Shown here one piece after another: positions 41,440 through 47,793 of a DNA stretch of 47,793 bases. The notes below the pieces were generated by a model. The model worked only from the letters and a program-made list of their open reading frames with translations, searched no databases and had not been told where the DNA came from. Numbering within the stretch: position 1 is the first letter of the stretch; each line of letters starts with the position of its first letter. Source of the stretch: Mycobacterium sp. AZCC_0083 (GTDB lineage: Bacteria > Actinomycetota > Actinomycetes > Mycobacteriales > Mycobacteriaceae); the NCBI RefSeq assembly GCF_014202335.1, contig NZ_JACHGP010000001.1, positions 1 through 47,793 of the forward strand, read 5' to 3'. A program made the position numbers and the translations under genes.

Positions 41440-42549
41440 TCAGTAGTCGGATTCGGCGGCCAGGATCTCGGCAAGGAACGCGTCGGGGCCGGGTAGCGCG
41501 AGCCTGCCCCTTGCAAAGGACCGGATCCGCTCCCTGATGCTGGCGGCGTCATCGGAGTCGTCGACGTCGGCGCCGACGATCACGGCGGTGGTCGGCCAAT
41601 CATGGTCCCAGGCCTGGGTTTCGGTCACCGGCTGCTGTTCGGCGCCGATCAACGGCAGCGTCGCACGGCCGTTGGCGTCCAGGATGCCTGCGCCGCTGAG
41701 CGCACCCGACCGCAGTCGTATCGAGACACCCGTGGCGGGTGCCGTGGTGGCCACCCGGACCGCAGCCACTGCCGCCGATCCGGCCATCTCGATCGCCCAG
41801 TCGACCGTGCCGTCGGCCGCGTCGAACAGCCCGGGGGGGACGGCAGTCCAGTTGATCGAACCGATTCCGCTGGCGATCGTCGACGCTCCCGACCGAACCG
41901 GTTCAGGCCCGGCGGCCAAGGCATAGTCGTCGCGGCGCCGTTGCGATTGAGCCATTGGCACAACCAGTTCCGACCATTCGGCGACGCCGAGTTCGTCGGC
42001 GAGTTCGCCGCAGGCACTGACGAGTTCGGCAACGCGCGGATCGTCGCCGTTGGCACTCGCTACCAGACTCGCCCCGTGCCACCGCAACAACTCGGCCACG
42101 TCGGAATCGAAGACGTCCTCGGCGAAGAAATCCTGTGCGGCGGCATTCAGCAGGGCGATCTCGCCGTCCAGAACCGAGGGGTCGAGCGCGACGATGCCAT
42201 CGCGTGAACTCGCAGGCCACCACCGCCGCAGCCAGTGCCCGACGGCGAGCCGCCGCAGTGGGGCCAGCGCGTCCCGCGACGGTTCGACGCCAGGGACGTC
42301 GACGACACGACCGCCGGCTGCCCCGCCGTCGCCGAGCGCTGCGAGCACGGCGACGTGACCGGCTTCGCCGACCACCCGCCAGAGCCATTCGGCGGCAGGC
42401 ACATCGGTGAAGGTGATCCTGGCGGCACCGGACGGGTCGTCGACCGTCCACGCCAGCACTGCACCGCTGAGTTCGAGCACGGCCACGGCGGGTGTCGCGG
42501 CAACCGTCGGGCCCGTGCTCCATAAACCGGAGTCCGCGACGAATCTCAT
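41440..42549 (-). CDS. Uncharacterised protein, coupled to the gene upstream
   Basis: Predicted 369 residues. I do not recognise the family. It is acidic, rich in Ala, Val and Asp, with no signal peptide or clear membrane helix. The first ~130 residues have beta-like patterns (VAVLELSGAVLAWTVDDPSGAARITFTDV), then a helical middle with QRRRDDY, and a C-terminal part that alternates beta strands (VDWAIEMAGSAAVAAVRVATTAPATGVSIRLRSG, LPLIGAEQ) like a small sandwich or jelly-roll. ATG 42549 overlaps the stop of the upstream gene in ATGA, so both are made together, perhaps as a complex. It ends 3 bases from the stop of the convergent esterase. Confidence 0.7.
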   Translation of the reverse strand: MRFVADSGLWSTGPTVAATPAVAVLELSGAVLAWTVDDPSGAARITFTDVPAAEWLWRVVGEAGHVAVLAALGDGGAAGGRVVDVPGVEPSRDALAPLRRLAVGHWLRRWWPASSRDGIVALDPSVLDGEIALLNAAAQDFFAEDVFDSDVAELLRWHGASLVASANGDDPRVAELVSACGELADELGVAEWSELVVPMAQSQRRRDDYALAAGPEPVRSGASTIASGIGSINWTAVPPGLFDAADGTVDWAIEMAGSAAVAAVRVATTAPATGVSIRLRSGALSGAGILDANGRATLPLIGAEQQPVTETQAWDHDWPTTAVIVGADVDDSDDAASIRERIRSFARGRLALPGPDAFLAEILAAESDY

Positions 42550-43868
42550 CGGGCCGCCGCCTCAACTTCGAGCATGGCCTTGATCCGCTGCCGGTGATCA
42601 AGGCTCACCGACCTGGCCACCCCCTCCAGCAGGGCTCTCACGTCGTCGACGTCGTCACAGGGTTCCTGCCAGACGTCGCGTCCGTGCAGCCTGGCCCACA
42701 ACCTGCTGGTGTACGGGCGGGCGAAGGCGGCGAGATCCTCGATCACCTGCCGCTGGCGCGGATGCAGCGGCCCGCCCTCGGCCAGATACCTCCGTGCGTG
42801 CAGTACGTACGCCTCCTTGCGGAGTCTGGCCTGGATCAGCCTGCCCAAGTCGTAACGCGGCGTTGCGGATTCGCGCAGCGGAGCGAGGTCGACGGCGACC
42901 TCGATACCTGCCACCAATGTGGCCTGCTTGTCCTCGGCGAGCAGTCCCCACGGTGCGCAGGCGCGGTCGACCTCCTCTGCGCACAGCAGCGGGAGGTCGG
43001 GCAGTTCGTCGCGGTCCAACGCGCGGCGCAGCGTCGCCCGCACGCGGTCGAGCACACTGCGATCCAACGGACGGTCGCCGTTACCACCAGCGGTCATCGG
43101 CGGAGGTTGTTGCGGGGCAATCGAACTCAATCCCACCTCGACGATCGACCATGGCAGATCGGCGAATTCGCGGCGCGCCCGTGCGCCGAGGTTGTAGGGC
43201 GTCGCGTCGGCGATCAGCGCCGACCAGACGCGTTGCCGCGCCGCCTCCGCGGTGTGACCGTTCGCGGTGCCGAGGATGGTGAACAAACCCGCCAGGAACG
43301 GACCGGCGATGGTGTCACCAGGGCGCACGTCGCGCCAACTGCGGTCGAGTTGGCGCGACAGCTTGGCTATGACCTCGTCGCCGTCGACGTACCGGTTCAG
43401 TTGCTCGATCGCGGTGCGGTCCCGCTCCTGGTGAATGCTGCGCAAGACGGCCTCGGCCGCCCCAACGTGGTCGTGCTCCGGCGCGCCCTTGGTCACGGCC
43501 AGCTCGAAACACACAGGGAAGTACAGCTCTTGTGCGTTCCCGGTGGTGATGCGCAACCGGCGGCGCTCGGTCTTGAGGACGGCGAACCAGGCGGCCGCGG
43601 CCCGCAGGTGGGCGGCGTTGTCGACGATCAGGTCGCGCACCGCCGCGGCGGTATCGGGCGCGAGGACTGGCGCCGAGTACTGAGGATTGGATCGCAGGCG
43701 GAGAACCAGCGGGTCGAGGATGCGCTTGACGGTACGGCGCAACGGGCCACCGTCCGAGCCGCTGAGCACCTCGACGCCAGGCCCGATCGCCCGCCAGGCC
43801 GCATCGATCACCGCACGGCGCGGTTGTGCGACGGCGACCGTCGTCACCACCTGCGGCTGCGTGCTCAT
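42546..43868 (-). CDS. Uncharacterised helical protein, first gene of a two-gene operon
   Basis: Predicted 440 residues. I do not recognise the family. It looks mostly alpha-helical and soluble, with many Arg and Leu (DAAWRAIGPGVEVL, RRTVKRILDPLVLRLR, LRAAAAWFAVLKTERRRLR), no Cys/His cluster and no nucleotide motif. The C-terminus (VRALLEGVARSVSLDHRQRIKAMLEVE) is again helical. ATG 43868 is six bases after a TATCCT -10 box, suggesting a leaderless mRNA. Coupled to the next gene by ATGA. It is divergent from a membrane-anchored protein and lies beside the CHAT peptidase locus, so it may be part of that system (inference). Confidence 0.7.
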   Translation of the reverse strand: MSTQPQVVTTVAVAQPRRAVIDAAWRAIGPGVEVLSGSDGGPLRRTVKRILDPLVLRLRSNPQYSAPVLAPDTAAAVRDLIVDNAAHLRAAAAWFAVLKTERRRLRITTGNAQELYFPVCFELAVTKGAPEHDHVGAAEAVLRSIHQERDRTAIEQLNRYVDGDEVIAKLSRQLDRSWRDVRPGDTIAGPFLAGLFTILGTANGHTAEAARQRVWSALIADATPYNLGARARREFADLPWSIVEVGLSSIAPQQPPPMTAGGNGDRPLDRSVLDRVRATLRRALDRDELPDLPLLCAEEVDRACAPWGLLAEDKQATLVAGIEVAVDLAPLRESATPRYDLGRLIQARLRKEAYVLHARRYLAEGGPLHPRQRQVIEDLAAFARPYTSRLWARLHGRDVWQEPCDDVDDVRALLEGVARSVSLDHRQRIKAMLEVEAAAR

Positions 43869-43874
43869 CTGCCC

Positions 43875-43880
43875 AGGATA
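43875..43880 (-). promoter_or_regulatory. -10 box of the two-gene uncharacterised operon
   Basis: TATCCT on the minus strand, six bases before ATG 43868 and with no Shine-Dalgarno. Same layout as before the cyclase and TPR-like genes. Confidence 0.4.
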
Positions 43881-43934
43881 GGGGCTGCAGAAAGTTGGGT
43901 TCGGTAGCCGGAGGGAAGGCCCACCCTGTGGTAC

Positions 43935-44567
43935 ATGCCCGACGCGCTCCTGATCGCCATCATCTTCCTCGCCTGCGCCGCCGTCGGAGCGGCGCTGGCC
44001 TGCCCGCTGGCTCGTCGCATGCACGAGTCTGCCGCCGTTCCGCCAGGCGCGAACCCGGCGGTCGGGATCGGCACCGTCCGCACCGTGGCAGGTCCGATCA
44101 CCGTCGACGTGGAGAGCGTCTCGGGACAACGGTTCGTCGGCAGGCTCCGTCAGCGTGACGGCGAACCGGATCTGCGTCCAGGAGTCGTGTTGCTCGTGGC
44201 GTTCGATCCTGCTGCCCGCGAGCGCCTTTCGTTGGCCGACGACATCGTGGCGGTCCGGTCGGAGTTCGACCAGATGCTGGTCCGCAAGGGACTGGCCACG
44301 CGCAACGAGCTCGACTTGATCAGGCACGGCACCAGGTCACGCGGCGTGGTGACGGCGATGCGGACGACCGGCGATGCACGCGAGGACTACCGCGAGGTCG
44401 AACTCGACCTGATGGTCCTGCGGCCCGAGGGCGGGCAGTTCCCTGCGCACGAGACCACGCTGATTCCGGCGTCCGCCCTGGCCGAGGTGACGCCGGGCAG
44501 CGTCGTCGACGCCTATTACCGCAGCGGTGACGAGTCTGCCGTCGCGGTGTGCGTACCGCCGAATTGA
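43935..44567 (+). CDS. Membrane-anchored protein of unknown function
   Basis: Predicted 210 residues. Residues ~3-27 form one hydrophobic helix (ALLIAIIFLACAAVGAALACPLA), so it is likely a single-pass membrane protein with a soluble C-terminal part. That part seems to hold two related beta-rich units: one ending PDLRPGVVLLVAFDPAARERLSLADD, the other RGVVTAMRTTG...VELDLMVLRPEGGQFPAHETTLIPASALAEVTPGSVVDAYY. Such a pattern is seen in uncharacterised actinobacterial proteins; the function is unknown. It is divergent from the helical gene at 43868 and convergent with the CHAT gene (4-base gap), so it sits inside the CHAT locus. Start at ATG 43935 is uncertain because the only purine-rich site is ~18 bases away. 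Confidence 0.65.
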   Translation: MPDALLIAIIFLACAAVGAALACPLARRMHESAAVPPGANPAVGIGTVRTVAGPITVDVESVSGQRFVGRLRQRDGEPDLRPGVVLLVAFDPAARERLSLADDIVAVRSEFDQMLVRKGLATRNELDLIRHGTRSRGVVTAMRTTGDAREDYREVELDLMVLRPEGGQFPAHETTLIPASALAEVTPGSVVDAYYRSGDESAVAVCVPPN

Positions 44568-44571
44568 AGGA

Positions 44572-45912
44572 TCAGCGGACGCCGTCGACGGTGAACGTCA
44601 CCAGAGCCGCCCAGTAGACGGGATTGGCGGTGATATCCCCTGCTCGCCACCGGCGCATCTGGTCGCGTTGCCAGCGGTTGACCTCGCATCCCGCGTCCAC
44701 GGACTGATGCGCCTCGTCCACTGCGACCACCACGTCGGCCATCGGATCGCCGTCGGTGAGGTGCGTGAACTGCCGGTATCCCGCCGTCGTGGGAAGTGAC
44801 CAGAGCGTTGCCGTGACGAGTTGCGCCCCGCCGAGGACGACGGCCGCCACCAGTCCGGTTGGCTCGTCGAAGCGGTAGTCGCCACCGGATGCGCACGCCA
44901 GCAGCGCAACCCGCGGAGGCATCGCCAACTGCAGCGACATCACCGCCGCAGCGGTCAGGGGACGCTCGTCGGCCACGTGCAGTGCGGCCTGATCGGCGCT
45001 GCCCGACTCGGCTGCGGTGGCGTGACCCACGAACAACAGCCGACTCGGACCAGAGGCCAGCTTGGCGGACAGCCAGTTCCAGTCGGTGTCGGTCCGCCGG
45101 AACAGCTCGACGGCCGCATCGACGGCGGGCAGCACGGCTCCGCGCGCGATGGTCTCCGCGAAGTGCCGGGCCAGTGGCGCGTCCGGCGACGGCCGCCCAA
45201 GCACCGACCCAAGCGCCGAGTCGGCCCTCTGCCCCGGCACCCGAGGATCGAGCACCAGCAGCGGAGGTCGATCGACGCGCTGGCTCCACTGAACGCGGGG
45301 GCGCGGCGAGTGCACGATGTTGGCGGGCACCGCCATCAACACCTCCACCAGTTCCATCAGCCGGTAACCCTCGGTCAACGAATCGGCATCGGCTGTCGGC
45401 CAAGGGATTCGGGCGGCTGACCTGCCTTCGGTCGTGATCGCAGCCGTCCTGGCCAGTACCATCTCCTCGGCCGCCGGCCGCACCGTCGGCAATGCGAGCA
45501 AGCCCCATGGGACGCGGGCCAGGCGCCCGCTTGGCGAGACGAACAACACGGGCCTCTGCCTTCCCCCGTCGCTTCGCTCGCCCCGAGGCGTCGACAAGTA
45601 CTCGAGCAGGAGCTGCCATCCAGCGTCGGACACCAGAAGCACCCCCAGCCGGTAGGCCAGGGTCAGTTCGCTGGCCTGCATCGAGAACGGGCCGACGGTG
45701 AGTGCCCGGTTCAGTGCATCCGCAACCGTCTCCCCCGGGTTCGGCTCCGGTAGCGCGCCAGCGAGTTCCTCGAGCGCCGCGAGCAGGAGGGGCTCCTCGA
45801 TCACCCAGGTGAGGGTTCGTTCCGGCTTTCCGACCACCCGGAGGCTGGCATAGGTAGCGACGCCGACGTCGGCGAACCGGAGGACCAAGGTCTCCCGATC
45901 GGTCAGGGCCAC
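44572..45912 (-). CDS. CHAT-domain caspase-like peptidase
   Basis: Predicted 446 residues. The C-terminal ~230 residues are a CHAT domain of the caspase-like (clan CD) peptidases: His297 in RLLFVGHAT and Cys340 in VALLACASGGDYR form the likely dyad, GGAQLVTATLWSLP follows as usual, and the end NPVYWAALVTF is typical. The N-terminal part (~1-200) also shows the CHAT-type segment RPVLFVSPSGRLARVPWGLLALP. Both catalytic residues are present, so protease activity is plausible. Residues ~108-117 come from the dispersed ERSD repeat. GTG 45912 overlaps the end of the helical-repeat gene by 10 bases, so the pair is translated together; helical-repeat plus CHAT pairs act in other bacteria as regulated proteases (for example TPR-CHAT with type III-E CRISPR effectors). 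Confidence 0.82.
   Translation of the reverse strand: MALTDRETLVLRFADVGVATYASLRVVGKPERTLTWVIEEPLLLAALEELAGALPEPNPGETVADALNRALTVGPFSMQASELTLAYRLGVLLVSDAGWQLLLEYLSTPRGERSDGGRQRPVLFVSPSGRLARVPWGLLALPTVRPAAEEMVLARTAAITTEGRSAARIPWPTADADSLTEGYRLMELVEVLMAVPANIVHSPRPRVQWSQRVDRPPLLVLDPRVPGQRADSALGSVLGRPSPDAPLARHFAETIARGAVLPAVDAAVELFRRTDTDWNWLSAKLASGPSRLLFVGHATAAESGSADQAALHVADERPLTAAAVMSLQLAMPPRVALLACASGGDYRFDEPTGLVAAVVLGGAQLVTATLWSLPTTAGYRQFTHLTDGDPMADVVVAVDEAHQSVDAGCEVNRWQRDQMRRWRAGDITANPVYWAALVTFTVDGVR
45559..45587 (-). repeat. Dispersed ERSD-coding repeat, copy in CHAT gene
   Basis: Sense strand core CTCGGGGCGAGCGAAGCGAC, followed by GGGGGAAGG, encoding RGERSDGGR. Less similar upstream of GAG than the other three copies. 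Confidence 0.5.
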
Positions 45913-47642
45913 GTCGACCAGGCGACTTCGTCCGTCGTGACGTGCTGGCCGTACCGGTCCAGAGCGAGCTTGCGGTAGCGCTCCAGCACGGGACCACCGG
46001 TGGGATCCATCTGCATCGGCGGCAGCGGGCCGAGCCGGGTCAGTGAGGGGCCGGACTGCACCGGCGGTCCAGCGGCGACCTGCGCGAGCTCGTCCATGTC
46101 ACTGATCGGCGCGGCAGCCGTCGCGACGCGCGACCACTCGATCACCTCCGCCTGCGCACTCTCGGCACTGAACGTGCCTCTGGCGCTGTGGTATTCGATC
46201 AGCTCACTGGTGAGTTCGCGGTTCTCCGACTCCCAGACGACGGAGAACGCCCCGGCCAGTAACGGCGCGGCAACGCACTCGGCCCACTGCGCCCTTGCCC
46301 CGGGTTCGGTGATCGCGTAGCGCACCGAGTCGACTGCCAGCGCGGCGGGCAGTTTCAGGTCGGCAGCGCGTGCCAGCTTGTCCATCGCGGTGAGGTACGC
46401 AGGACTTCCCGGCTCGGCGTGCATCACGCCCTGCGCGGAGCGGTAGCGCTCCTCGGCGGCAGGCCAGTCCTCGTCGGGGTCGCCCGCCCCGTCGAATCCG
46501 AGGTCGGCCAGCGCATCGGCGCGCCATACCGAGCCGAGGTGGTCGTCCAGTCTGGCGTACGCCAGCCAACTGCTGCGCGGCGATTCGTCGAGGCACGCAC
46601 GGGCCTGTTCGATCATTGTGGTCGCGTCCTGGTAGCGACCGCGGAAGATCGCAATCCAGCTGCGCTGCAACAGGATGCGGTGAATGTGCAGGGGCTTCCC
46701 GAGCTCGCGCCAGTGCCGTTCAGCGTGCTCCCAACACTCGTCGGCGACCTGCAGACCGCCTGCCGCCATCCGGTACAGACCGAAGTACAACCAGCAGCGG
46801 GATACGTCGTTGGCGCGGAGATACTCCGCGATCACCGGGTAGGCCTCGCGGACCAATGCCTCGGTGGCCAGCTGTTCGCCCTTCGACCAGCAGATCGTGG
46901 CCCGCTCCAACTGGGTTCGGGCGATGGCCAGTGGCCACTTGCGGGCCTCGGCGCGGGCCCCCGCTCTGCGCAGCCAGGGCTCGGCTTCGTCCAGCGCCCC
47001 GGTCTCGATGCAGAATCTGGCGTATCCGATGCCGCCGAGGACGAGCAGGTTGTCGGTCGATTCACTGCCGTTGCTCGGCCCGTCGATGTCGGCGATCACC
47101 CTCTGCCACAGCGGTACCGAGCGGACGTGAAGATCGTCGTCGCAGAGCGCCGTGGCGCAATTGATCCGGGCGTACGTGCACAGGTACGCGTACTCGTCGC
47201 GCAGATCGGCGAACGCCGCGTCGTCCGACGTCATGCCGTCGAGCACCTCGAGCGCCGCCGCGGCGCGCTCGTGATCCCCGAGAGCCGCGGCCAGACCGAT
47301 CTCGAGGAACTGCGCGCGGCGGGAGTATCGACGGATCAGATGGCGCGCGTCGGCGTCGGACATGGTCGACTTGGCGACGATCTCCCGTGCCGCGGTCCCG
47401 TCGAGGATCGACGAGTAGTTCGAAAGGCACTCGCGGATCCTCGTCGCGCCTTCGCGCACCCCGTCGTACGCCGTCCTGACCAGGTACAGCTCGCCTAGCT
47501 GAGCCAGGACTTCAAGCATCAAATCGTCGCGGTCGGCTTGCTCGATCTCCGGCATCAGCGACAGCAGCAAGTCCTTGGCCGCGGGCTCGTCGGCGGCCAA
47601 GGCAAGGTGGCGGGCACGCTCCAGCTCGCCAGGGATCGACAC
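45903..47642 (-). CDS. Helical-repeat (TPR-like) protein paired with the CHAT peptidase
   Basis: Predicted 579 residues, almost entirely helical. TPR-like hairpins are visible: GALDEAEPWLRRAGARAEA, LATEALVREAYPVIAEYLRAN, RCWLYFGLYRMAAGGLQVADECWEHAERHWRELG, IHRILLQRSWIAIFRGRYQDATTMIEQARACL. No enzymatic motif and no membrane helix are seen. The last ~70 residues are Pro-rich and less ordered. Such scaffolds usually sense a ligand or partner; here the partner is most likely the CHAT peptidase encoded next (10-base overlap). The GTG at 47642 lies six bases after a TATGAT box, suggesting a leaderless mRNA. It is close to the poor-quality contig end, but its reading frame is intact. Confidence 0.8.
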   Translation of the reverse strand: MSIPGELERARHLALAADEPAAKDLLLSLMPEIEQADRDDLMLEVLAQLGELYLVRTAYDGVREGATRIRECLSNYSSILDGTAAREIVAKSTMSDADARHLIRRYSRRAQFLEIGLAAALGDHERAAAALEVLDGMTSDDAAFADLRDEYAYLCTYARINCATALCDDDLHVRSVPLWQRVIADIDGPSNGSESTDNLLVLGGIGYARFCIETGALDEAEPWLRRAGARAEARKWPLAIARTQLERATICWSKGEQLATEALVREAYPVIAEYLRANDVSRCWLYFGLYRMAAGGLQVADECWEHAERHWRELGKPLHIHRILLQRSWIAIFRGRYQDATTMIEQARACLDESPRSSWLAYARLDDHLGSVWRADALADLGFDGAGDPDEDWPAAEERYRSAQGVMHAEPGSPAYLTAMDKLARAADLKLPAALAVDSVRYAITEPGARAQWAECVAAPLLAGAFSVVWESENRELTSELIEYHSARGTFSAESAQAEVIEWSRVATAAAPISDMDELAQVAAGPPVQSGPSLTRLGPLPPMQMDPTGGPVLERYRKLALDRYGQHVTTDEVAWSTWP

Positions 47643-47677: not shown

Positions 47678-47793
47678 GGGGGGGGGGGGGGGGGCCGGCC
47701 CCCCCCCCCGGGCGTGCGCGGCCGTTTTAAGAAAACAGATATAGGACAACGTTGTGTTTTTAACCCCCCCCCGGGGGGTGCTTGTGGGCCCCC
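47678..47793. other. Low-complexity contig end, probable assembly artefact
   Basis: A run of 17 G, then CCGG, then 11 C, a short AT-rich piece unlike the rest of the genome, and further C and G runs to the edge. Composition and homopolymers do not look like mycobacterial DNA. No gene should be called here. Confidence 0.85.

Follow-up and report, generated by a model that had tools for sequence, protein, structure and literature searches.

We describe a conserved gene module, in itself near certain, in which a TPR-like protein and a CHAT peptidase occur together with two proteins of no recognised family, here called A and B; that these four form a joint system is well supported. The variable linker of A carries YALAA, the last five residues of the tmRNA tag of the same cell, followed by glycine. 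Based on this match and on the analogy with known TPR-CHAT proteases we tentatively propose, with a confidence that stays somewhat short of even, that the TPR-CHAT pair would cut A at YALAA, that Clp would remove the N-terminal half of A, and that B would thereby be released.

Genomic organization of the locus

The window is the whole stretch of DNA analysed, 47,793 nucleotides of Mycobacterium sp. AZCC_0083. In an ORF check the five genes that an initial annotation had grouped around a TPR-like/CHAT pair (A, B, M, CHAT and TPR) were all recovered where it had placed them, with one selected ATG taken as the start of gene B. The features used below are the following.

41440..42549, minus strand: gene A, 369 aa; no family match; candidate substrate
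41908..41925, minus strand: YALAAG, codons 209-214 of A; AL(A/V)AG motif in the linker; proposed cut after Ala213
42546..42549, minus strand: overlap of the B end with the A start, 4 bases
42546..43868, minus strand: gene B, 440 aa; no family match; proposed output partner of A
43935..44567, plus strand: gene M, 210 aa; N-terminal hydrophobic segment; accessory
44572..45912, minus strand: CHAT peptidase gene, 446 aa
44893..44895, minus strand: catalytic Cys340 codon, 94/94 loci
45022..45024, minus strand: catalytic His297 codon, 94/94 loci
45903..47642, minus strand: TPR-like gene, 579 aa; overlaps the CHAT start
contig 47926-48516, outside the window, same strand as the module: LpqH-like lipoprotein gene (Pfam Myco_19_kDa, E 7e-30)

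The further description of these genes also holds. The TPR-like gene overlaps the CHAT gene (45903-47642 versus 44572-45912), with TPR profile matches below threshold; M, described as a membrane-anchored protein facing CHAT, lies on the plus strand and carries a single strongly hydrophobic segment near its N-terminus (Kyte-Doolittle 2.78 over 19 residues); and the two coupled genes of unrecognised family share a 4-base overlap and are without a Pfam, NCBIfam or PADLOC match at E up to 1.

One claim has to be corrected, namely that the locus abuts the contig end. The contig runs on to 733,549 bases, and the border appeared because the window stops at a scaffold gap (window 47679-47793 and L002:7680-7916), which separates the TPR and lipoprotein genes and is made up of extended runs of G and of C plus ten N; the gap with its homopolymer runs is probably assembly noise. 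Beyond it lie the LpqH-like lipoprotein gene, an AlkZ-like gene, a UvrA-like gene on the module strand and a metallo-beta-lactamase-fold gene; thus, with the lipoprotein, AlkZ-like and UvrA genes past the gap, the outer border of the locus is visible. The other flank holds lysX and an esterase-family gene, the Rv1639c-like gene of the initial annotation. The names UvrA, lysX and Rv1639c follow a presumed resemblance to the M. tuberculosis gene order.

Conservation within the genus

Named loci were collected in a scan of genome contigs, and the best 80 of 94 loci were used. Among these best 80, CHAT and TPR are present in 80 each, B and A in 79 each, the lipoprotein in 76 and M in 69, and the gene order lipoprotein-TPR-CHAT-(M)-B-A is constant. 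All six genes occur in 63 loci, while 11 are without M, four without the lipoprotein, one without A and one without B. The four loci without the lipoprotein and the one without A lie at contig ends, and the locus without B is the decayed one of M. lepraemurium (L076), in which the pieces are shortened. Where M is missing (11 of the best 80 of 94 loci) the CHAT-B spacing ranges from -11 to +94 bases, so that lipoprotein, TPR, CHAT, B and A form one run. In most loci the lipoprotein gene lies directly upstream of TPR, at a distance of 57-111 bases where its end is correctly called. A gene for uvrA, AlkZ or lysX is found in the flank of 53 of the best 80 of 94 loci; the other 27, from slow growers, Mycobacteroides, Nocardioides and others and including a few short contigs, are without these flanks, and the module is thus kept at more than one chromosomal site.

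We then compared by eye the match lists of 148 same-genus genomes, own genome included. CHAT and TPR were each matched in 96, B in 99 and A in 101; all four occur together in 95 genomes, some of A, B and TPR only in 6, a weak CHAT match alone in 1 (G126), and none in 46. These counts include related genomes and refer to matches rather than intact genes, as the genes in some of the 95 are broken up across frames or contigs (e.g. G031, G045) and several of the 6 are fragments. The module genes are shortened or broken in L076 (M. lepraemurium), L156-L158 and G107, pointing to decay in some lineages as judged from these pieces.

The initial annotation had named two observations as refuting a joint function, free variation of the neighbours of the CHAT pair and loss of the catalytic dyad in close homologues. 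The gene order is constant in the best 80 of 94 loci, and none of the 94 loci inspected has lost the dyad. Since the neighbours do not vary freely and the dyad is kept in 94/94 loci, there is good support for a joint system made up of TPR, CHAT, B and A. The putative regulated proteolysis system of five genes envisaged there is supported in part: TPR, CHAT, B and A are kept together (95/148), while M is accessory (69/80) and the lipoprotein joins as a sixth gene (76/80). We also considered M as a core part and rejected this, as it is absent from 11 of the best 80 of 94 loci; it is best described as accessory, because it is absent from these loci yet recurs in 4/11 loci outside the genus.

Occurrence outside the genus

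In a sample of the class, B was matched in 34/394 genomes and 6/137 genera, and 13 of the 34 genomes lie outside the genus. One of these 13 loci is a remnant (L155) and another is cut by a contig end after A (L148). In the remaining 11, B, A and CHAT occur together without exception (11/11) in the order B-A-(TPR)-CHAT, a TPR profile match is found in 9/11, and near B, within the stretch read, M is present in 4/11 and the lipoprotein in 2/11. The four Nocardioides loci of the named scan (best 80 of 94) show the arrangement lipoprotein-TPR-CHAT-B-A. A sample of the phylum gave matches in 12/396 genomes, the single one outside the class being marginal (E 4e-4).

The CHAT and TPR-like proteins

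The CHAT protein scores 56.5 bits against the Pfam CHAT profile (PF12770, cut-off 24) and is predicted to be a protease. The His297/Cys340 dyad assigned to it in the initial annotation is correct and intact in 94/94 loci, a set that comprises the 80 from the scan, the one in the window and 13 more. The TPR-like protein gives sub-threshold Pfam matches to TPR profiles, the best with an E of 0.0015. While TPR and CHAT are two overlapping genes here, they lie within one open frame in two outside-genus loci (L144 and L146); we infer that the two act as one enzyme. It is noteworthy that many same-genus relatives are without CHAT residues ~143-180 (window 45373-45486), where matches break between residues 142 and 181. 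This stretch may represent a lineage-specific insertion or loss ahead of the catalytic part.

Proteins A and B

Searches of Pfam, NCBIfam and PADLOC at E up to 1 assign neither A nor B to a family, and among 20 relatives of each protein weak Pfam rows appear in scattered single members only (best E 0.044). The 4-base overlap between B and A is found in 76/78 measured loci (from the best 80 of 94). Structure models were built on 20 sequences each. A comprises an N-terminal beta/helical part, a disordered-looking linker and an Ig-like part, and the model of B is mostly helical with low confidence and no fold resolved. Within mycobacteria the identity is about 67-87% for B and about 47-77% for A. 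The C-terminus of A (window 41443-41484, last residues DAFLAEILAAESDY) is strongly conserved, with tyrosine as the last residue in most aligned relatives.

A conserved AL(A/V)AG motif in the linker of A

The linker between the two halves of A is variable and predicted to be disordered, with a mean pLDDT of 31-33 for residues 201-220 in the model from 20 aligned sequences. It holds the motif AL(A/V)AG, here YALAAG. The motif is present in A in 55/55 genomes for which the tmRNA tag was also read, and exact ALAAG in 118/120 among the database relatives listed. In an alignment of 31 A proteins (19 of the available mycobacterial and Nocardioides proteins and all 12 outside ones, the decayed L076 being left out) it ranks second in conservation among 363 six-residue windows, and its flanks average 0.28 majority identity. 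The motif codons vary synonymously among relatives. None of the other locus or flank families keeps an ALxAG motif, and YALAAG is encoded three times in all frames of the 8.6 Mb genome, compared to one occurrence of a reversed-pattern control. Alanine-rich motifs are common in high-GC proteomes, which counts against a specific reading of the motif, and ALAAG could have a structural role.

Relation of the motif to the tmRNA tag

The main tmRNA of the genome encodes the tag ADSNQRDYALAA, which ends in YALAA. A reads RRDDYALAAG at the corresponding position, so that DYALAA is common to A and the cell's own tag. In genomes with a Tyr tag the residue ahead of ALAA in A is tyrosine in 33/33 cases, while the 22 genomes with a Phe tag have Tyr (12), Phe (5), Leu (4) or His (1) there. 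Strict covariation of this residue with the tag across the 55 genomes is therefore rejected, the Phe-tag genomes being mixed. A Fisher test for the association of Tyr with Tyr gives p 2e-5, a trend confounded by kinship.

In M. smegmatis, YALAA acts as a Clp degron (PMC9067928). Recognition by E. coli ClpXP hinges on the terminal Ala-Ala and its free carboxylate, YALAA being sufficient for degradation of GFP and LAA not (PMC7652416). The residues of the motif that are kept are the terminal Ala-Ala that matters for ClpX and one glycine after it, within a variable linker. Ends in ALVA, as genomes with valine at position 212 would expose, are also degraded. The genome contains a second tmRNA gene (L186, own genome C19:90049-90419) with an unusual tag, AAFTASDYAAAA; it adjoins tRNA-Gln, Tyr, Asn and Trp genes and possibly sits on a mobile element.

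Proposed mechanism and alternative explanations

In the mechanism that we propose, A would bind B and hold it. Once triggered, TPR-CHAT would cut the linker of A after YALAA, between Ala213 and Gly214. Inside the protein YALAA should be silent because it has no free end; the cut would make it a live C-terminal Clp degron, Clp would destroy the N-terminal half of A, and B, the likely partner of A, would be set free as the output. The presence of YALAA followed by glycine in the linker is a plain feature of A, while cutting of this bond is our proposal. A thereby becomes a specific candidate substrate with a specific candidate site. The lipoprotein and M suggest that an envelope signal may act as the trigger.

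The most complete form of this reading holds that the CHAT protease unmasks a built-in tmRNA (ssrA) tag end in A, that ClpXP takes the N-terminal half and B is released, that this arrangement is kept across mycobacteria and several other actinobacterial families, and that A and B represent undescribed protein families. Taken as a whole we consider it doubtful. If true, it would connect CHAT caspase-like proteases with Clp proteolysis of the tmRNA-tag type, a pathway that is essential in mycobacteria and a drug target there, and would provide a natural TPR-CHAT switch outside CRISPR as well as a possible reason for the instability of the fragment left by a TPR-CHAT cut. With substrate, site and the residues to change named, the function of two conserved unannotated families would be directly testable. 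A literature search on CHAT-domain/TPR genes in mycobacteria and Actinobacteria, with most subscription journals outside its scope, found no paper on the locus.

Orthologous Craspases differ in their cleavage sites and accept substitutions around them (PMC11106740), so that the protease need not demand YALAA. Since TPR-CHAT proteases do not require a fixed sequence, strict conservation of the site here asks for a different explanation, for instance as a degron or through docking. The motif may thus serve binding: in a TPR-CHAT switch of this kind AL(A/V)AG would have a docking or structural function instead of being a degron, cleavage would occur at another place in A or within B, and the resulting fragments would act directly. 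The variation of the residue ahead of ALAA fits this explanation, as does the better conservation of B compared to A in mycobacteria (about 67-87% versus about 47-77%). However, the kept residues are just the terminal Ala-Ala needed for ClpX and one glycine, the linker around them is variable and predicted to be disordered, and YALAA matches the final residues of the tmRNA tag in this cell; we regard a docking or structural role as rather unlikely. A role in cell-envelope homeostasis seems improbable to us. Here TPR, CHAT, A and B would act on the LpqH-like lipoprotein or M, with one of these envelope proteins, or something outside the locus, as the target of CHAT. This is consistent with the lipoprotein in 76/80 loci, mostly just upstream of TPR, M in 69/80 and housekeeping flanks in 53/80 (all from the best 80 of 94), and with the lipoprotein beside B in 2/11 and M in 4/11 outside-genus loci. 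M is, however, absent from 11/80 (best 80 of 94) and from 7/11 outside-genus loci while B, A and CHAT persist, and the lipoprotein is absent from 9/11 outside-genus loci within the stretch read. Moreover, the predicted protease is without a signal peptide, which would make an exported lipoprotein an unlikely direct target.

TPR-CHAT proteases act in type III-E CRISPR immunity (PMC10028731 and PMC9729208), and the presence of the module is patchy (95/148), with decayed pieces in some genomes. This would fit an anti-phage or conflict system whose CHAT is activated, as in Craspase, once TPR or B senses an invader, but in our view that explanation is quite improbable. A search for a CRISPR array or Cas7-11 near the locus gave no direct repeats of at least 20 bases in the surrounding 15 kb and no PADLOC match for the five locus proteins (E up to 1) or for eight proteins from the flanks (E up to 0.001). 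Searches of the genome for CATRA-C and CATASP, run without a positive control, gave no hit, and uvrA, AlkZ or lysX flank 53/80 loci (best 80 of 94). A mobile defence island is likewise not favoured, because of these housekeeping flanks and because neither a defence-like match in the scanned proteins nor repeats were found.

Comparison with known systems

The proposed cleavage of A at YALAA resembles Craspase (Csx29, Csx30 and a sigma factor) in several respects. Csx29, the TPR-CHAT protease of type III-E systems, cuts its neighbour Csx30 once and needs its His and Cys, and the N-terminal piece of Csx30 is unstable if the end created by the cut is left unblocked (PMC10028731). The Jettenia caeni ortholog cuts AIAA|SSEK, after two alanines, while other TPR-CHAT orthologs cut L|D and M|K with substitutions around the site tolerated (PMC11106740). 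Both systems combine TPR and CHAT with a His/Cys dyad and a neighbouring protein with a flexible linker, the substrate Csx30 there and the candidate substrate A here; the proposed cut of A would likewise follow Ala-Ala, as described for the one ortholog, and the N-terminal half of A would be destroyed, in line with the fragment instability described for Csx30. In contrast to Craspase, TPR and CHAT are usually two genes here, A and B match no family, and the proposed site in A is conserved.

CATRA systems comprise a caspase-like peptidase with TPR-associated partner proteins, a composition that the present module shares. A and B differ from them in that neither showed a CATRA row when scanned against Pfam at E up to 1. 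In PMC8195603 CATRA is mentioned among caspase-dependent ternary systems.

The fate proposed for A has parallels in bacterial stress regulation. LexA is cut at an Ala-Gly bond. This cut frees a latent ClpX signal, and Clp removes the N-terminal half, which still blocks the target (PMC10584840); for RseA, which acts with RpoE, a cut exposing a ClpX signal is discussed in PMC10028731. The same sequence of exposure of a ClpX signal and removal of an N-terminal half by Clp is proposed for A. LexA is self-cleaving and RseA is processed by DegS and RseP, whereas the cutting of A would fall to a distinct caspase-like protease; in a further difference from both, the signal in A matches the tmRNA tag end of the same cell.
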